From contig JACPZD010000036.1 of assembly GCA_016195665.1 (NCBI GenBank), positions 62,001 to 126,000 on the forward strand: a DNA stretch of 64,000 bases. The letters run 5' to 3'. This DNA comes from Gammaproteobacteria bacterium. Lineage in GTDB: Bacteria; Pseudomonadota; Gammaproteobacteria; SURF-13. Shown here one piece after another: positions 25,208 to 49,512 of this stretch (position 1 is the stretch's first letter; every line of letters starts with the position of its first letter). Position numbers and translations under genes: made by a program. The notes under the pieces were generated by a model. It was given only the letters and a program-made list of their open reading frames with translations, was not told the origin of the DNA and made no database searches.

Positions 25208-25807
25208 CTATAACACCGTGGGTCTATCCGGTAATTCATTGATGTCGCCGCTGCGTTTCGGATAATGCTTATCCAGATGCGCACCGACGGCTTTAATGCC
25301 ACGAATCACCCCTTGCTCGAACAAGCGGGAGGTCGCTCCCGGCGTCCTGCCTCCCGCGACATTAGTACTTCCGTGTACGTCAGTCGCTCCCGGCGTCCTG
25401 CCTCCCGCGACACTGGGCCTTCCCCGGCCGGCGCGGAATGCAGCTTCCATATCGCGGCAAATTTTTTCCCAACCTTCTGCGCCGACATGGGTATGGATGC
25501 CACGATCAGCGACAATCTCGACATCGCGGTCAGCGAGCAGCAGATAAATCAAGACGCCGTTGTTGTGCTCGGTGTCCCACACTCGCAAATCAGAAAAAAT
25601 CTCCAAGGCACGCTCACGCGCGCTCTGATTTCTGAATAACGGGCCGATGTCCAAACCCGCTTCTACTGCGAAGCGAATCTCGCCCTGATGGGTGCGCTCA
25701 GCCTCACGAATCGCAGCCTCAATCGCGTGCATGGCTGAAGGCGGAAAGGCGCGCCGCACCTGCCAGTGTCCGGAGCAAAGATGTTTAATCAAGCGGGAGA
25801 GCGACAT
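25208..25807 (-). CDS. TPM-domain protein with inserted repeat-encoded segment
   Basis: Protein of 199 residues. The TPM domain is visible from residue about 25 (AIEAAIREAERTHQGEIRFAVE) to LADRDVEIVADRGIHTHVGAEGWEKI. A foreign stretch at residues 132-159, GRTPGAT occurring twice, interrupts what should be a continuous helix (AAFRAG ... FEQGVIRGIKAVG). It is encoded by two tandem copies of the 51-bp repeat described separately. TPM proteins with YgcG and LemA partners are thought to act at the cell envelope. It is the last gene of lemA-ygcG-this gene, 3 bases from its neighbour. Confidence 0.85.
   Translation of the reverse strand: MSLSRLIKHLCSGHWQVRRAFPPSAMHAIEAAIREAERTHQGEIRFAVEAGLDIGPLFRNQSARERALEIFSDLRVWDTEHNNGVLIYLLLADRDVEIVADRGIHTHVGAEGWEKICRDMEAAFRAGRGRPSVAGGRTPGATDVHGSTNVAGGRTPGATSRLFEQGVIRGIKAVGAHLDKHYPKRSGDINELPDRPTVL
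25332..25412 (+). repeat. Two tandem in-gene 51-bp repeat units (one full, one partial)
   Basis: Unit 1 covers 25332-25382 (51 bases, GTCGCTCCCGGCGTCCTGCC and on to GTACGTCA). Unit 2 follows directly at 25383-25412 and repeats the first 30 bases. Together 81 bases, divisible by three, so the frame of the TPM gene is kept. Read on the coding strand they give VAGGRTPGAT twice. Confidence 0.9.
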
Positions 25808-31320: not shown

Positions 31321-31465
31321 AAGGGCGCCTCTAAAAATTCGATCAAGCCGATGACGGCAAGGCGAAAACGGGCGAAAAAGCGCAGTTGACACGCAGTCAA
31401 TGAGCATTTTGAGCCTGTTTTCAACGCCGCCAGCGCGGCTTTAGCGAATTTTTAGAGGCGCCCTT
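31321..31465. mobile_element. 145-bp MITE-like element with perfect 21-bp terminal inverted repeats
   Basis: Left end AAGGGCGCCTCTAAAAATTC plus G (31321-31341) is the exact complement of the right end (31445-31465). There is no coding capacity. It occupies most of the gap between folB and plsY; the left end is 8 bases from the folB start. No clear target-site duplication is visible. The element could carry outward promoter signals. Confidence 0.85.
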
Positions 31466-41831: not shown

Positions 41832-43001
41832 TCAAAGTTCTCTCGCCCTGGGCAGATAGACTACATCGGGCTGATCTACATGACTCAGTTGCTCAACCAA
41901 TCTCTTCGCAAGCACCTCGGGCGTTCCGTTAAAGCTCACCAAGCCGGCTTTGCGCGCATGATCGGGCATACTGGAGATAAGACAGCTCTCCGCATCCTGC
42001 GCCCATACTACTCCGCCGTGTTCGACAATACTCTGCGCCCCCCTCAATCCGTCGTTGCCCATGCCGCTGAAGATGACGGCCCCGGCGTGACGGCCGAAGC
42101 GTTGTGCGACGTTGGTCATGATGGCGTCAATGGAAGGCCGGTAGAGCCGGTCGTCCTGGGTAAAGGGTTTGAGTTCAAGTTGCCCCTCGGCATTGATGAC
42201 CAGATCCTCTTCGACCGGCGCCAGCACCACTTGATGATGACGCAGGCTGTGACCCGACTGAGCGGGTATCACTTGGAATGCGGCAGTGGAATCGAGTTGC
42301 TGCGCCAACAGCGTGGCAAAACCCGTCCCGATATGTTGCGCCAGCACAAATGCGATCGGCAGTTCAACGGGGATGGCGTTCAAAAAACTTTTCACCGCCT
42401 GCGGACCGCCGATCGAGGCGCCCAGCACCCATACCCGCAGAACCCCGGCATTCGATACCGGCATCTTCGGCGCAGCCGGTTTACCGATTGGACGTAGCGG
42501 TTCCGGCGCGGGCGTGAACTGCACCGGTTCCGGCACGGACGCCGGTTGTTCTGCGGGTGCTGTTGCGGCAGCCTCGTCTTTAATGGCCTTGGCTTGCCGA
42601 TGATGCACAACTAAAGCCACCAGCTTCTGGGCGAGCCTGCGGCCCCAATCGCCGTGATGGGCGGCGGCGATGATATGGGTGGAGGCGCTGTCGTTAAACA
42701 GGACCGGCAGATCGAATCGCTCCAGCAACTGGTCGAGAAAATCCTGCTCCGACATACAGGGATGTATTAGTGTCGTGGGAGGCAGGACGCCGGGAGCGAC
42801 CGCCTCGGTCTCGTCATCCAGGTCCAGCAGCAACACGTCCGCGCCCGTCCGGCTGAGCTTGCTCAGAAATTCTTCGCACGGTGGTTCGTTAATCACCACC
42901 TCAAGCCCGCCCTTTTCCACCAGGGATTGCAGGTTGGTGCGCTGGCGTTCCTGGGCGGAGGCGATGGCGACGCGCAGTTTTTTTCCAGAGGCGCCGCTCA
43001 T
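41832..43001 (-). CDS. chpB: Chemotaxis methylesterase ChpB (CheB)
   Basis: Protein of 389 residues. N-terminal REC-like domain without the usual phospho-acceptor layout (LRVAIASAQERQRTNLQSL); C-terminal CheB methylesterase with nucleophile Ser in GASIGGPQAVK, His in LAQHIGTGFA and Asp in FSGMGNDGLRGA. It removes methyl groups from PilJ glutamates. A 17-residue segment (VAPGVLPPTTLIHPCMS, residues 68-84) is encoded by one copy of the 51-bp repeat and lies in the REC-like domain. It begins 2 bases after chpA ends. Confidence 0.9.
   Translation of the reverse strand: MSGASGKKLRVAIASAQERQRTNLQSLVEKGGLEVVINEPPCEEFLSKLSRTGADVLLLDLDDETEAVAPGVLPPTTLIHPCMSEQDFLDQLLERFDLPVLFNDSASTHIIAAAHHGDWGRRLAQKLVALVVHHRQAKAIKDEAAATAPAEQPASVPEPVQFTPAPEPLRPIGKPAAPKMPVSNAGVLRVWVLGASIGGPQAVKSFLNAIPVELPIAFVLAQHIGTGFATLLAQQLDSTAAFQVIPAQSGHSLRHHQVVLAPVEEDLVINAEGQLELKPFTQDDRLYRPSIDAIMTNVAQRFGRHAGAVIFSGMGNDGLRGAQSIVEHGGVVWAQDAESCLISSMPDHARKAGLVSFNGTPEVLAKRLVEQLSHVDQPDVVYLPRAREL
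42750..42800 (-). repeat. In-gene 51-bp repeat in chpB
   Basis: Full 51-base unit ending GGACGCCGGGAGCGAC on the + strand, opposite in orientation to the TPM copies. It adds exactly 17 codons to chpB and reads VAPGVLPPTTL. Confidence 0.9.
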
Positions 43002-43003
43002 GG

Positions 43004-46000
43004 CTAATGGAGTGTGGCGATCCGGCCGCCGACCAGGCTGTCAATGTTCTTCAACAACTCGCTTTCCTGGTAAGGCTTACCCATGTAGCTGTTCACGCCG
43101 ATCTGCATGGCGCGCTCACGGTGCTTTTCACCGGTGCGGGAGGTAATCATGATGATGGGGATGTGCTTGAGCCGCGGTTCATTGCGGATCAGGGTGGCGA
43201 GTTCATAGCCGTCCATGCGCGGCATTTCGATGTCCAGCAACATGACGTCGGGGATGTGCTCTTGCAGCAAGGCTACCGCATCCACGCCGTCTTTGGCCGC
43301 CAGCACCTGGATATTATGGCGCTCCAGCAGCCGGGTGGTGACCTTGCGCACGGTGATGGAGTCATCCACCACCATCACCGTCATTATGCCCGTGGATGCG
43401 GGCGCCGCCGGCTCCGCGACGGCCTGCTCCGTGGTGCGCATCATGCCGAGGCGCACCAGGGCGGGAATATCCAGAATCAACACCACGCGGCCGTCGCCAA
43501 GTATGGTGGCGCCGGTGATGCCGCGCACCGTACTGATCTGCGGGCCGACCGACTTCACTACGATCTCGCGGCTGCCCATGATGGCCTCGACTTGCAACGT
43601 CACATAGTGATCGCCCGCGCGCATCATCAACATGGGTAATTTTCTGCGCGGGCCTGGCAGATAGGGGTGGGCGGTGCCCAGCAGCGTGCCCAGATGCATG
43701 AAGGTGTAACCCCGCCCGTCCATCCTGTAGGTCGCACCCGGCTGGGCGTGAAACTCTTCCAACTCTTCATGCGTGACGCGCGTAATGCGTTCGATGCTGG
43801 TGAGCGGAATAGCGAATACGTCCTCGCCGACATGCACCAGCAGCGCCTGGTTCACCGAAAGCGAGAGCGGCAAGCGCAGCGTGAAGGTGGCGCCCTGGCC
43901 CGGCTTGAAGCCGATATCGAGCGTCCCGCCCAGTTGCTTCACTTCGCTGTTCACCACATCCATGCCCACGCCGCGGCCGGAAATCTGGGTGATCTCCGAG
44001 ACGGTGCTGAAGCCCGGCTCCAGGATAAACTGGATCACCTCGTTATCCGTCATATCGGCGCTCTTGCTCAGCAGGCTGCGTTCGTGCGCCTTCTTGCGGA
44101 TGGCGGCGACGTTGAGGCCGGCGCCGTCGTCGCTGATTCGTATCGCTATATCCGTGCCTTGCCGCTCCACGCGCAAGGTGATCGTACCGGTTTCAGGCTT
44201 GCCGGCGGCGCGGCGCGCCTTGGCCGGCTCAACGCCGTGGTCAACCGCATTACGCAGCAGATGTTCCAGACTGGGCACAATCCTGTCCAGCACCGTTCTG
44301 TCCGTCTCGACCTCGGCGCCGAACACGCGCAACTCCACCAGTTTTCCCAAGTCGTGCGCGACCTGCCGGACGATGCGCCGCATGCGCGGCATGACCACGG
44401 CGAATTGCACCATGCGGGTGCTCATCAAACCCTGTTGCAGATCTGTATTGATGCGGGATTGCTGCAACAGCAGGGTCTCCGACTCGCGCGTCAGATTCTG
44501 GAGCTGACCTTCCACATTTTCTAGGTCGTTGACACCCTCGATCAAGCTGCGTGACAGTTGTTGTATGGAGGAAAAGCGATCGAACTCGAGCGGGTCGAAC
44601 TCTTCGTCCTGGCGTCCTGTCTCGGCGTAGCGGAACAGGATTTGCGCCTCGGTTTCGATCTCGAGCTTGCGGAGTTGCGCGCGCAATCGCGCCACGACCT
44701 GATCCATTTCCGACAGGTTGTACTTGAATGAGCCGATCTGTTGTTCCAGACGCGAGCGCGAGATACTGATCTCGCCCGCGAAATTCACCATGTTGTCGAG
44801 CAGATCGGCGCGCACCCTGATCTGCTCATGCTGGATGCGCGACAGATGGCGATGCTCTTCCTCGGCAGGTTCGAACTCCTCCTGCTCTCCGACCGCTTCG
44901 GCCGGCGCTGCCCCCGGCGTCCTGCCTCCCGCGACATCAGTACGTCCCTGTACGTCATCGGGCTGCTCCGCCACAGGTTCGAGTTCGGCCGTCTTAACCG
45001 GCGCGGGGGCGGTCTCCGGCTGCTCGGGGAGCTGCCCTGGGGGATGGCCGTCAATCAGGCCCTGGATGTGGGCGATCAACTCGGGCGCCGGCGGGATCGG
45101 CAGGTTGGCGGCGGCGAGATCGAGCATCTGCAACAGCCTATCCTGGGTCTGCTGCATAAGCACCGGGAGTTGCGGCGAGACGGGCAGGTGGCCGTCCACG
45201 ATCGCCGTGATGAGGGATTCCAGGCTATGACTGAGATCTCCCATCGCGGTGATAGCCGCCATGCGTGCGCCGCCCTTCAGGGTGTGTAATTGCCGTCGCA
45301 ACTCCTCCATCAAATCCTCGTTGGACGGATCGGCGCTCCATTGTTGCAGAGTGATCTCGCAGGCCTCCAGTATCTCTTTGCCTTCTTCGAGAAATACCTC
45401 GACGACTTCACTGTCCTTTTCAGCCGCGGCGGACTCACTGAACCGGTTCATCACCGCCGGAGCAGGTCTCTCCTGCGACGTATAGGGAAGAGCGACAGCG
45501 AAGGGTTCTATTAGTGTCGCAGGAGGCAGGATGCCGGGAGCGCCTTCGATGGCGTTCAACTGATGCGCCAGCTCAACCTCATACAAGGCCGATATGTCGG
45601 CCATCAACGCCGTGTTGTTCGGCCAGGAAAACTTGGGATCCTTGAGCGCCGCGATGGTTTCTTTAGTGAAGGCAATGGTGCGGCGGAACAGGTCAATGAT
45701 TTGCGGCGTGATGACGGTTTGGTTGGCGCTCAACGATTTGACATATTTTTCCAGCAGACCCGCAGGCGCGGCGATGTCTGGCACGCCCGCCATGCTGGCG
45801 CTGCCGTGCAGCGTATGCAGGGTGCGGCTCAATGCATCGGTGACGCGGCACTCGGTCGCTCCCGGCGTCCTGCCTCCCGCGACACTAGTAGTACCCTTCG
45901 CTGTCGCTCTTCCCTGTACGTCGGCATCCTGGGCGATGCACTGGTCAATGAATGTCTGAATCTTGTCGAGATGCCCGGCCGCCTCTTTACCGAAGATTTC

Positions 46001-48619
46001 AAGCAGCAATGTATCCATCTGCGGCTCTACTTCGCGCGCCGGTCTGACAATAACCTCCGGCGCGACCACCCCCTGGCTCAAGGTCACGCTGTCGCTGGGA
46101 AGCTGCACTATCGGCGACGGAGCGGCAGGCGCCTCTACAGGCTGCGGAGCAGGTCGCTCCCGGCTTCCTGCCTCCCGCGACATTAGTACGTCCGTGTACG
46201 TCACGAGACCGCCGGGCTGGCTCATCGCCCTGGCCTGATCCATCATGGCCTGGATGTCCAGGGCGGGCGGGGCGCCTCCCTTGAAATGCTCGACGAGCTG
46301 CGGCAATGCCGCCTGCGCCCGCTCGATCAGATCAATGACGGCCTGATGAGCCGGCACGGTATTGTCTATCACCCGGTTGAGCATGTTCTCGAAGGCCCAC
46401 GCGAATTCACCGATGGCGGTGGCGCCTACCATACGCCCGCTGCCCTTCAAGGTGTGGAACGAACGCCGGATGACGGTCAAGGCCTCGTGATCCTCGGGAT
46501 TCTTCTGCCAGACGGGGAAATGCGCGGCGATGGTGTCCATCTCCTCTCCCGCCTCCTCAAGAAAGATCTCGATGATCTCGTCGTCTATATCCGCGGGACG
46601 GGCGGCGGGTGTGGTGAGCGCTGACGGCGGGGCCGCCTCGGCCTGTTCCGAGGTATAGGGAAGAGCGGCAGCGAAGGGTTCTACTAGTGTCGCGGGAGGC
46701 AGGACGCCGGGAGCGACCGCAGGCGGCTCGGGTCCGGCGCCGGCCTCGGCCTGGATCCCGGCCGCCGGGGCCAATTCAATAGATTCCGGCGCAGGCGCGG
46801 AGACTTCATCCGCGACCAAGGCGTGCGTCTCTCCAAACAGGTCACTGGGCGCCAACGCCTCTGCTGCTGCGGGGGGCTGTTCGCCGGCATCGGTGAAGCT
46901 GAGCTGGCGCACGCTCTGCTGGGCCATATTAAGAATGGCCTCGCGATCGCTCCGCCCTTCGTCCAGCGCCTCCAGATAGTATTCGACACTGCTGATCACA
47001 TCGGCCAGGTTATCCAACTGGTGCTGGCTGGGGATGATCTTGCGCTCGATCAGATCCTCGGTGATACGTTCCTTACAATCGGACAGGATCTCGGCGGAAC
47101 GGGTCTCGGACACTACCTGCAAGGCGCCGATGATCTGGTTGAGCAGGGCCGGTACATGCACCAGCAGGTGATGCTGCATGGGCGTCACGATAAACGCCGT
47201 GATGGATTCCTTCACCCGCGAGAGATCGGCCTTGATCTCCTTGACGACCGTCGAGAAGAGCTGCCGGTATTCCGCGCTGCTGAGCAAATTTTCACTGTCG
47301 GCCGGCGCCGGACTTGCGCCGCTTTGCACGGCGAAGCGATCCTCCGCCGCGCGCGGTTCCTCTTTACCCAGGGCATCGAGAGAAGACTCTACATACAGCA
47401 AGGCGCCGGCCATCTCCATCAGCGCCGCCTCATCAACCGGTGCATCGCCTTGCACCATCTCCTTGAGTAGGTTGACCTGATTGAGAATCCGTTTGCGGGC
47501 GAGCCCCAGGCCCAGCATGCCGACGGTGTCGGCGATTTGCCGCAGCGGCTCTTCCAGCGACTGCAACTCACTGTTGACCGGCAACTCGCTGCGTACAAAG
47601 ATATCCAGGGTATCCTTGACGCGGGACAGATCCTCGCGGATCACCGCCGAGACGGTGCGCAACAGTTCGAGATTGGGACCGGCCAGACTGGTGCGGGCCT
47701 GCTCGATCTCGTCTTCCCTGGGCAGCAGGGCGTCGAGATCGAAGGCGTATTTCAAGCCGAGCACCCGCGCGCCGGCCGAGGTGGCTTGGGCCACGTAATA
47801 GAGCATGTTCTTCAACAACTCGCGCGGCGGATGGGCGATCAGTTCCTCTTCGCCGCCGTCAATCAGACGCTTGACCTGACGATCCACCTGTCCCAGCAAG
47901 AGCTTCACGGAGACGCTCGGCTCCAGGCCGTTTTCCAGCAGAGCCTCGATCAGGCCGTGGGTCACCCACCATAGTTGCACCACCGCGCCCTGGCTGGACG
48001 CCTCATCCAGACGCTGGATGACCTTGTTCAATTCCTTGAGATGCTGCATGGCGGCCGGCGTGCGGTACCAGTGGACCAGACTGCGTTGATAGGCGCTGCG
48101 CTGCCGCCGCGCCACCGCGCGGATATCCGGCTGGCCCTGAACGACCAGCTCCAAGGCCGGGCGCGCTGGCGGCGCGATGCTGAGGTCGGGGGCGAACAGC
48201 GCGCCCTGCGAGAGCAGGTTCTGACCGCGCGCCGCGCGCAGGTCATTCAACAACGGCAGCAGCACCAGGGGCGTATCCTGCTGATGGCCGCTCTGCAGGC
48301 GCTCCAGGTAATTGGGCAGTTGCAGGATGGCGCGCATCAGGACTTCATAGGCGTCGTCGCGCTGCTGAATTTCTTCCCTGGCCAGGGCCTCCGCGAGGTG
48401 TTCCATCTCTTCGGCGAGCATGGCCGCGCCATACAGCTCGATCATCTGCAGGGTGCCGTGCACCTGGTGCAGATGGGTCACGCAAAAACGCATCTGCGCG
48501 CTGTCGTGTGGATTGAGCACAAAGGCCTCTAGGGCGTGCCGCGCCTCGGCGAGGCTCTGATCAATCTCGCCCTTGACCCATTTCAGGGTGCCGTAATCAA
48601 TGAGCGCGGCGGGATTCAT
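43004..48619 (-). CDS. chpA: Hybrid histidine kinase ChpA with several Hpt domains
   Basis: Protein of 1871 residues, the kinase of the type IV pilus chemosensory array. FimL-like N-terminal Hpt-related region (HQVHGTLQM near residue 51), then canonical Hpt domains with His near 722 (FHTLKGSGRM), 935 (LHTLHGSASM) and 1112 (LHTLKGGARM). Next are the dimerisation and HATPase domain (HLLRNAVDHGVEP, DDGAGLN), a CheW domain (residues about 1600-1730) and a C-terminal receiver with Asp near 1796 (MLLDIEMPRMDG). Pseudomonas ChpA has about eight Hpt-like domains; this one has fewer. ATG 48619 follows AAGGAG and overlaps the pilK stop. Five repeat-encoded segments lie in linkers. Confidence 0.93.
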   Translation of the reverse strand: MNPAALIDYGTLKWVKGEIDQSLAEARHALEAFVLNPHDSAQMRFCVTHLHQVHGTLQMIELYGAAMLAEEMEHLAEALAREEIQQRDDAYEVLMRAILQLPNYLERLQSGHQQDTPLVLLPLLNDLRAARGQNLLSQGALFAPDLSIAPPARPALELVVQGQPDIRAVARRQRSAYQRSLVHWYRTPAAMQHLKELNKVIQRLDEASSQGAVVQLWWVTHGLIEALLENGLEPSVSVKLLLGQVDRQVKRLIDGGEEELIAHPPRELLKNMLYYVAQATSAGARVLGLKYAFDLDALLPREDEIEQARTSLAGPNLELLRTVSAVIREDLSRVKDTLDIFVRSELPVNSELQSLEEPLRQIADTVGMLGLGLARKRILNQVNLLKEMVQGDAPVDEAALMEMAGALLYVESSLDALGKEEPRAAEDRFAVQSGASPAPADSENLLSSAEYRQLFSTVVKEIKADLSRVKESITAFIVTPMQHHLLVHVPALLNQIIGALQVVSETRSAEILSDCKERITEDLIERKIIPSQHQLDNLADVISSVEYYLEALDEGRSDREAILNMAQQSVRQLSFTDAGEQPPAAAEALAPSDLFGETHALVADEVSAPAPESIELAPAAGIQAEAGAGPEPPAVAPGVLPPATLVEPFAAALPYTSEQAEAAPPSALTTPAARPADIDDEIIEIFLEEAGEEMDTIAAHFPVWQKNPEDHEALTVIRRSFHTLKGSGRMVGATAIGEFAWAFENMLNRVIDNTVPAHQAVIDLIERAQAALPQLVEHFKGGAPPALDIQAMMDQARAMSQPGGLVTYTDVLMSREAGSRERPAPQPVEAPAAPSPIVQLPSDSVTLSQGVVAPEVIVRPAREVEPQMDTLLLEIFGKEAAGHLDKIQTFIDQCIAQDADVQGRATAKGTTSVAGGRTPGATECRVTDALSRTLHTLHGSASMAGVPDIAAPAGLLEKYVKSLSANQTVITPQIIDLFRRTIAFTKETIAALKDPKFSWPNNTALMADISALYEVELAHQLNAIEGAPGILPPATLIEPFAVALPYTSQERPAPAVMNRFSESAAAEKDSEVVEVFLEEGKEILEACEITLQQWSADPSNEDLMEELRRQLHTLKGGARMAAITAMGDLSHSLESLITAIVDGHLPVSPQLPVLMQQTQDRLLQMLDLAAANLPIPPAPELIAHIQGLIDGHPPGQLPEQPETAPAPVKTAELEPVAEQPDDVQGRTDVAGGRTPGAAPAEAVGEQEEFEPAEEEHRHLSRIQHEQIRVRADLLDNMVNFAGEISISRSRLEQQIGSFKYNLSEMDQVVARLRAQLRKLEIETEAQILFRYAETGRQDEEFDPLEFDRFSSIQQLSRSLIEGVNDLENVEGQLQNLTRESETLLLQQSRINTDLQQGLMSTRMVQFAVVMPRMRRIVRQVAHDLGKLVELRVFGAEVETDRTVLDRIVPSLEHLLRNAVDHGVEPAKARRAAGKPETGTITLRVERQGTDIAIRISDDGAGLNVAAIRKKAHERSLLSKSADMTDNEVIQFILEPGFSTVSEITQISGRGVGMDVVNSEVKQLGGTLDIGFKPGQGATFTLRLPLSLSVNQALLVHVGEDVFAIPLTSIERITRVTHEELEEFHAQPGATYRMDGRGYTFMHLGTLLGTAHPYLPGPRRKLPMLMMRAGDHYVTLQVEAIMGSREIVVKSVGPQISTVRGITGATILGDGRVVLILDIPALVRLGMMRTTEQAVAEPAAPASTGIMTVMVVDDSITVRKVTTRLLERHNIQVLAAKDGVDAVALLQEHIPDVMLLDIEMPRMDGYELATLIRNEPRLKHIPIIMITSRTGEKHRERAMQIGVNSYMGKPYQESELLKNIDSLVGGRIATLH
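44907..44957 (+). repeat. In-gene 51-bp repeat in chpA (residues about 1221-1237)
   Basis: 51-base unit in the same orientation as the TPM copies, read as DVQGRTDVAGGRTPGA. It lies after the third canonical Hpt domain, in the linker before the kinase core. Confidence 0.88.
45476..45544 (-). repeat. In-gene 69-bp repeat in chpA (residues about 1026-1048)
   Basis: Long form with 18 extra bases, orientation opposite to the copy at 44907. Read as GAPGILPPATLIEPFAVALPYTS. Linker between the Hpt domains with His935 and His1112. Confidence 0.88.
45855..45923 (+). repeat. In-gene 69-bp repeat in chpA (residues about 899-921)
   Basis: Long form, read as DVQGRATAKGTTSVAGGRTP and on. It lies just before the Hpt with His935. 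Confidence 0.88.
46153..46203 (+). repeat. In-gene 51-bp repeat in chpA (residues about 806-822)
   Basis: Short form, read in a third frame as YTDVLMSREAGSRERP. It lies after the Hpt with His722. Confidence 0.88.
46649..46717 (-). repeat. In-gene 69-bp repeat in chpA (residues about 635-657)
   Basis: Long form, read as VAPGVLPPATLVEPFAAALP and on. It lies before the Hpt with His722. Confidence 0.88.
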
Positions 48620-49512
48620 CAGACACACTCCTTGGAGAGCCCGTCGGCGGCCGTGCTGGAGACATGGCCATTCAGCGCCGGGAGACGCCGGTAGGCAAGG
48701 GTGTTTTCAGACGTGAGCCGCTCCATGCGCGGACTGGACCAATCCGTGACCTCGCCGGGACCGAGCACCAGCACCCCTCCCGGCCGCAGATACTTCATCA
48801 GAATATTAAGAATATCCAGCCGGCGGGAACGATTAAAATAGATCAGCACATTCTGGCAATAGATAATATCCATCTCGCCGAGGGCCGCATGCCGGTCTTC
48901 CACAATGTTCATCTGACTAAAGCAGACCCGTTTGCGCAGAGCCTCGCTCACCTGATATTGCTCCGGTTCTATGGGAATGAAGTAGCGCTGCACAATGGTG
49001 GGGTCCATGCCGATGAACTTGCGGCGGTTATAGACGCCGTGGCGAGCGGTGGTCAGGGCCGAACGGCTGATGTCGGTAGCGGTGACGCTGAGATAATACT
49101 GGACACCCAGCGAGGCGAGATGCTGATCTATGACGATGGCGAGCGAATAGGCCTCCTCGCCGGTGGCGCAGCCCATGCTCCAGGCGTTCACGGACAGCCT
49201 GTCCGCACCCTCCGCCGAGCGCGGCAGACAACGCTCCCGGATCAGGCGCAACGATTCGGGATGCCGGAAAAAGCGTGTCTCGTGGACGGTGAGCCTGTCC
49301 ACCAGGGTCGCCCACTCGACCACCCGGCCCGGCGCCGACACGATCAGATCATAGTAACTCTGATAATCCGGGCAGCCGATTTCACGCATGCGCAGCCCGA
49401 TGCTGGTAACGAGAAACGACTTACGCTCTACGGGTAAACTGGTTCCCGTGCGTTGCTCCAGCAGTTCCGCCCATTGGTAAAACTGCTTGTCGTCCATCTT
49501 CGGCAGGGTCAT
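48619..49512 (-). CDS. pilK: CheR-type methyltransferase PilK
   Basis: SAM-dependent MCP methyltransferase of 297 residues: DRLTVHETRFFRHPESL, WSMGCATGEEAYSLAIV (SAM loop), ATDISRSALTTARHGVY and IIYCQNVLIYFNRSRR. It adds methyl groups to PilJ. Start candidates are 49512 and a Met five codons on; neither has a good ribosome site. It overlaps the chpA start. Confidence 0.92.
   Translation of the reverse strand: MTLPKMDDKQFYQWAELLEQRTGTSLPVERKSFLVTSIGLRMREIGCPDYQSYYDLIVSAPGRVVEWATLVDRLTVHETRFFRHPESLRLIRERCLPRSAEGADRLSVNAWSMGCATGEEAYSLAIVIDQHLASLGVQYYLSVTATDISRSALTTARHGVYNRRKFIGMDPTIVQRYFIPIEPEQYQVSEALRKRVCFSQMNIVEDRHAALGEMDIIYCQNVLIYFNRSRRLDILNILMKYLRPGGVLVLGPGEVTDWSSPRMERLTSENTLAYRRLPALNGHVSSTAADGLSKECV

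Follow-up and report, generated by a model that had tools for sequence, protein, structure and literature searches.

What do five copies of one short repeat do inside a single signalling protein, and how did they get there? The gene in question (positions 43004–48628, minus strand) lies in the window, that is, the whole stretch of 64,000 nt that was analysed (contig JACPZD010000036.1), and encodes a ChpA-type hybrid kinase of 1874 aa with Hpt, H-kinase_dim, HATPase_c, CheW, and response regulator domains. Hpt is represented by four Pfam stretches, PilJ- and CheR-type genes stand before chpA, and a CheB-type gene follows it. Given this domain set and these neighbours the name ChpA is sound: several Hpt domains, dimerisation, HATPase, CheW, and receiver domains are present, together with CheB/CheR/PilJ-type genes, as in the Pil-Chp hybrid kinase. 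Residues are numbered here from the GTG at position 48628, while a preliminary description of this locus had started at the ATG at 48619, which explains why its residue numbers are lower by 3 and otherwise agree with ours to within one residue; its His722, His935, and His1112 are our His725, His938, and His1115, each the first residue of an HTLKG/HTLHG motif. That description placed all five copies in linkers of the phosphorelay, never in a domain core, and suggested that they might change linker length, and hence phosphotransfer geometry, or might simply be tolerated. Judged from the sequences, the repeats very probably stem from a small mobile DNA element, non-autonomous in its movement, whose copies ride in ChpA as tolerated passengers.

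The open reading frame holds two 69-nt copies on the plus strand, and one 69-nt and two 51-nt copies on the minus strand. Copy 1 (long, 46649–46717, plus strand, antisense to the gene, residues 638–660, VAPGVLPPATLVEPFAAALPYTS) is found in the linker preceding the Hpt domain with His725, and copy 2 (short, 46153–46203, minus strand, sense, residues 810–826, TYTDVLMSREAGSRERP) in the linker following it. Copy 3 (long, 45855–45923, minus strand, sense, residues 903–925, DVQGRATAKGTTSVAGGRTPGAT) is treated separately below. Copy 4 (long, 45476–45544, plus strand, antisense, residues 1029–1051, GAPGILPPATLIEPFAVALPYTS) lies in the linker joining the Hpt domains of His938 and His1115, and copy 5 (short, 44907–44957, minus strand, sense, residues 1225–1241, DVQGRTDVAGGRTPGAA) in the linker upstream of the dimerisation domain. 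The preliminary description had overlooked a sixth copy of the cluster (short, 42750–42800, plus strand), which is antisense and in frame at codons 68–84 of the neighbouring CheB methylesterase-type gene (ChpB, 389 aa, 41832–43001, minus strand), as well as a tandem pair at 25332–25433 and about 100 copies elsewhere. Both members of the pair (25332–25382 and, with a variant hairpin 1, 25383–25433, minus strand) are in frame in a 199-aa TPM-domain ORF. By chance, 0.25 copies would be expected in chpA, and the probability of five or more is approximately 6e−6. In another genome, a CheR/PilK-type gene (L156), of the type that adjoins chpA in the window, carries an in-frame long-form unit.

The placement in linkers held for copies 1, 2, 4, and 5 but not for copy 3, which interrupts the second Hpt domain in its first interhelix loop, 13 residues N-terminal of His938, and separates helix 1 from the helix bearing this histidine. 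The anchors flanking it are 41 residues apart, or 18 once the insert is subtracted, and 17–18 in all five relatives in the ChpA alignment, where an exact empty site is present at this position. The fold of the second Hpt domain was predicted from the single sequence with moderate confidence (mean pLDDT 73); in this model, a four-helix bundle, fragment residues 46–65, mostly insert, make up a loop of low confidence that connects two of the helices. The best structural match of the model was the CheA phosphotransferase domain 1tqg, and by sequence the domain gave weak matches only to solved structures. Copy 3 is thus in a surface loop and not in the packed core, yet it is part of the Hpt fold and not of a linker; the structure prediction that had been proposed as a check places one copy within an Hpt fold, though in a loop.

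Could the segments nevertheless act as functional spacers, determining how long or how flexible the ChpA linkers are and with that the phosphotransfer geometry between Hpt domains? Four of the five copies stand in linkers beside Hpt domains and the clustering in chpA exceeds chance, but the alignment with five relatives (44–58% identical) speaks against it. Between fixed anchors, the linkers of these relatives are 61–205, 41–142, 36–49, and 45–113 residues long and unrelated in sequence; for the linkers holding copies 1, 2, 4, and 5 this spread is mostly larger than the 17–23 residues contributed by an insert, and at three of the four, linkers of relatives reach or exceed the length seen here although their sequence is unrelated. 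The comparison with relatives therefore turned out against the spacer claim, and tuning of phosphotransfer geometry found no support. The ChpA of a sister genus (G002) has a tandem pair in the linker preceding the Hpt domain with His725 and a partial antisense unit in the linker preceding the dimerisation domain, in both cases differing from the host's copies in orientation and in the point within the linker; these are independent insertions at permissive places. Since one copy also lies within an Hpt fold and units of the same family occur in dozens of unrelated proteins, a spacer function is very improbable. The other option, that the segments are simply tolerated, is well supported: dozens of unrelated proteins, both in this genome and in other genera, contain the unit in frame, the sister genus has its independent copies, and a CsoS2-type carboxysome ORF holds six. 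The ChpA inserts are passive passengers, and altered phosphotransfer is unsupported.

The five copies belong to a large family. With a 26-nt core and up to 3 mismatches, the genome (2.38 Mb) gave 105 matches, 55 on one strand and 50 on the other, against 0 for the reversed control, so that the ChpA copies are not a product of chance. The core was present in all five other sampled genomes of the host's family (7–42 copies each) and in 42 of the 369 genomes sampled from the class, and at least 119 stretches with the unit were found in named genomes, the matches listed including Nitrosomonas eutropha, Methylomonas koyamae, Sedimenticola, Halomonas, a Pseudomonas, and a Phycisphaerae MAG, the last of which may be a binning error. 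Repeats commonly give rise to assembly errors, and an assembly or annotation artefact, or an ordinary tandem duplication of chpA coding sequence, was considered as well; however, the copies differ from one another, are found on many contigs in either orientation and with flanks unique to each, and turn up again in genomes and isolates that were sequenced independently, a spread that already refutes such an origin and leaves it a practically negligible probability. The searched phages and complete E. coli genomes lacked the unit. The sole plasmid match, at 83%, lies in an annotated DNA primase gene of the Lonsdalea populi plasmid NZ_CP072857.1 (3584–3635). Probable type I restriction modification (HsdM-like) genes from Nitrosomonas, Rhodanobacteraceae, Pseudomonas, and others (L151, L189, L195, L164, L176) carry the unit at similar loops, which suggests that it travels with horizontally moved genes.

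The unit is 51 nt (17 codons) or 69 nt (23 codons) long and folds, on a single strand, into a pair of adjacent hairpins. Based on 225 short and 24 long copies, the consensus of the short form was YGAY-GYAC-ANGGAN-GTRC-NART-GTCGC-GGGA-GGC-AGGAY-GCC-GGGA-GCGAC, while in the long form the region of the first hairpin is extended. Hairpin 1 consists of pairs 5-18, 6-17, 7-16, and 8-15 plus base 1 with base 21, and the consensus beside it reads YGAC and TART. Covariation far above that of shuffled sequences was seen for pairs 1-21, 5-18, 6-17, and 7-16 (e.g., 6-17 was Watson-Crick in 160 of 181 against a shuffled mean of 80, and 1-21 in 164 against 91), and the predicted fold of the unit had a z of approximately −3. 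Hairpin 2 is nearly invariant, in part because it served as the search key, with two-sided changes (GAC with GTC) in its inner stem in other genomes. Tandem copies, such as the pair in the window, are spaced exactly 51 nt apart.

Both lengths are multiples of three, which keeps the reading frame, and four of the six frames of the unit are largely free of stop codons, so that as a rule a gene that receives a unit just gains residues. In the stretches around copies that were used for the analysis of the host genome, with gene calls from a home-made codon model, 88 of the 110 copies were wholly within predicted genes and in frame, distributed over 67 ORFs. The commonest reading was DVQGxTSVAGGRxPGAT (sense), followed by VAPGVLPPATL (antisense). 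Genes with an in-frame unit, some of them coding for essential enzymes, include those of valyl-tRNA synthetase (ValS), phosphoglycerate mutase (GpmI), succinyl-CoA synthetase (SucC), phosphofructokinase (PFK), PriA, MnmE, DnaG, and enolase. Of the 40 proteins scanned, at least 17 have the insert inside a Pfam domain envelope; in the rest it is at domain junctions, termini, or in unassigned parts. Sense copies outnumbered antisense ones inside genes, 59:29 in the host genome and 78:18 in other genomes (some of these sites being homologous), an excess that may come from peptide tolerance. The six copies of the CsoS2-type ORF (L092, 2729–6124, with CsoS2_M, i.e., CsoS2 mid-region, and AAA matches) include two in tandem, and the carboxysome genes at this locus (CsoSCA is adjacent) point to a chemoautotrophic host.

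In order to find filled and empty versions of the same site, both flanks of a copy were joined and the joined sequence was searched elsewhere. Many pairs were recovered, and in the clear ones (e.g., L122 vs. L109, L145 vs. L167, and L163 vs. L253) the flanks meet exactly, without target duplication and without loss. Several units are nested in another, inverted unit, which gives a direct empty site. The preferred target is approximately CYKG^C, with C, C/T, T/G, and G/C in the 5' flank and C as the downstream base in about three quarters. Target base −3 and base 19 of the unit covary, T going with a pyrimidine and A/G with a purine (Fisher p approximately 2e−6), although not as simple pairs; guide bases would be expected to produce such a dependence, but differences between lineages are a possible confounder. 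A second, unrelated dispersed repeat, intergenic and with 18 matching stretches in the genome (e.g., L117, L129, L122, L128), has some members that hold the 51-nt unit and others that show the empty site, including the one in the window, part of which (31400–31431, plus strand) is the empty version of the site filled at L117. In L170 and L228 a longer intergenic palindrome (GACAAAGGGCC...GGCCCTTTTGTC) holds the unit in its loop, and a sister contig (L166) has the clean empty site.

A mobile element tolerated by its carriers would account for these observations as follows. The unit would spread in trans with a mild sequence preference, landing almost anywhere, and purifying selection would remove the copies that damage proteins, as their location and frame bias suggest. 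Survivors would then collect in surface loops, linkers, and disordered proteins, and the long variable linkers of ChpA may have let five copies accumulate. With less confidence, we guess from the anatomy of the unit that it may be moved as single-stranded DNA by a trans-acting HUH enzyme (Y1, of the IS200/IS605 or RAYT kind). The ends of IS200/IS605 elements have a hairpin after a tetranucleotide, insert precisely without target duplication, prefer a 5' tetranucleotide, and depend on guide bases. The unit resembles them in its hairpin preceded by a tetranucleotide, its precise insertion, the lack of target duplication, and the preferred 5' tetranucleotide, but no transposase or full-length relative with its ends was found, and its target dependence is possibly due to lineage. 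The host genome has nine Y1_Tnp genes. No mobilising enzyme was found among them, as the Y1 loci examined in the host and its relatives have no adjacent unit, their surroundings showing other palindromes or none, apart from one copy about 1.3 kb from a Y1 gene in G004; Y1 transposase loci were accordingly rejected as source of the unit for lack of any association in the loci scanned.

Would the unit then be a REP that a RAYT encoded in its own genome mobilises, as in the known REP/RAYT systems? It is a small palindromic unit of high copy number with inverted pairs, inserted without target duplication in a genome with nine Y1_Tnp genes, and GTAG- and CGTC-tagged REPs have likewise been reported, for several species, inside genes (such as uvrA, DNA polymerase I, and tRNA synthetases; Di Nocera and others 2013, PMC3733652). 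Head-to-head pairs and intragenic copies are thus common to both, but REPs are mostly intergenic, whereas the unit is mostly intragenic and has two hairpins, the first with a stem covarying freely around a fixed loop. The GTAG tag is absent, its place beside hairpin 1 being taken by YGAC and TART, and so is the combination of a CGTC tag with an 8–9 bp stem starting with A-T and a 4–5 nt loop: the reverse strand of the unit does end in CGTCR, but its stem is 4 bp (plus pair 1-21) and its loop 6 nt. Moreover, none of the scanned Y1 loci of the host and relatives contains a RAYT gene flanked by the repeat, and the Y1 genes in L278 and L279 have GTAG-type palindromes nearby, not the 51-nt unit. 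A REP/RAYT origin is therefore possible but doubtful.

Other known systems differ as well. Among known kinds of element, Rickettsia palindromic elements (RPEs) and intragenic REPs come closest. RPEs are dispersed palindromes that interrupt many protein genes, even those of conserved enzymes, while keeping the frame (Ogata and Claverie; PMC2229807, PMC3733652), and a guanylate kinase with an RPE insert remains active (PMC2229807). Our unit is comparable in being dispersed palindromic DNA in many unrelated ORFs, with the frame kept and apparently tolerated, but RPEs are long stem-loops of 105–146 bp from Rickettsia, while the unit is 51/69 bp with two separate hairpins, not a single long stem, occurs in Gammaproteobacteria, and, going by published descriptions, shares no described sequence with them. 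The empty sites lack the target site duplication of DDE-type MITEs. Matching neither RPEs nor REPs in tag, stem, or layout, the family is a distinct one. A literature search that took in few subscription papers returned nothing relevant for the encoded peptides or the core DNA, and an earlier description may exist.

It could also be argued that the unit is selected as RNA: as mobile CsrA/RsmA-binding sites, its two hairpins would regulate or sponge CsrA once they are transcribed. Published motifs are the RsmE hexaloop ANGGAN, the SELEX CsrA consensus RUACARGGAUGU, and the CsrB repeat CAGGA(U/A/C)G (PMC7652899). Both loops of the units (e.g., at 44907–44957 in the window) fit these motifs strikingly well and vary at the published free positions: of 225 copies, 186 have C-ANGGAN-G as loop 1, with precisely the N positions varying, and 214 have CAGGA(U/C/A)G as loop 2, although hairpin 2 served as search key, which inflates its conservation. 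The match of loop 1 is not a search artefact, because hairpin 1 was outside the search key for most copies. A csrA gene is present in the host genome, and the sense strand is favoured inside genes. However, 29 of the 88 in-gene host copies are antisense, and the RNA there would have no GGA loops, while no CsrA was found in one genome with 17 copies, where an assembly gap is possible. Between codirectional genes 13 copies are sense and 17 antisense, which supports neither a role in transcripts nor selection as sense RNA. CsrB/RsmZ-type RNAs share the loop motifs, but the unit occurs in both orientations, mostly within coding sequence, and Rfam returned no family for the chp region and 13 repeat-bearing loci. 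Selection as RNA is hence unlikely, and we give equally little credence to the combined form of the idea, a mobile CsrA-binding module in which a pair of GGA-loop hairpins spreads as in-frame DNA, with sense transcripts binding or sponging CsrA and the peptide harmless. The match of both loops nevertheless poses a direct, testable question.

Most in-frame palindromic elements described so far come from Rickettsia, apart from sporadic REP examples in other organisms, and the present family places 17 or 23 codons inside housekeeping enzymes of many gammaproteobacterial lineages. Its copies amount to a large collection of natural peptide insertions that have passed selection, which can be used for mapping permissive sites in proteins, and in searches for the enzyme that moves such elements the unit offers a defined substrate. 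ChpA is also a warning that short repeated segments in multidomain signalling proteins are not necessarily functional spacers. At four loci (L146, L168, L203, and L233) the unit is closely preceded by another, separate hairpin, whose loop is CAGGGATG (GGCCGCAGGGATGCGGCC), hinting at a wider superfamily of AGGGA hairpins.
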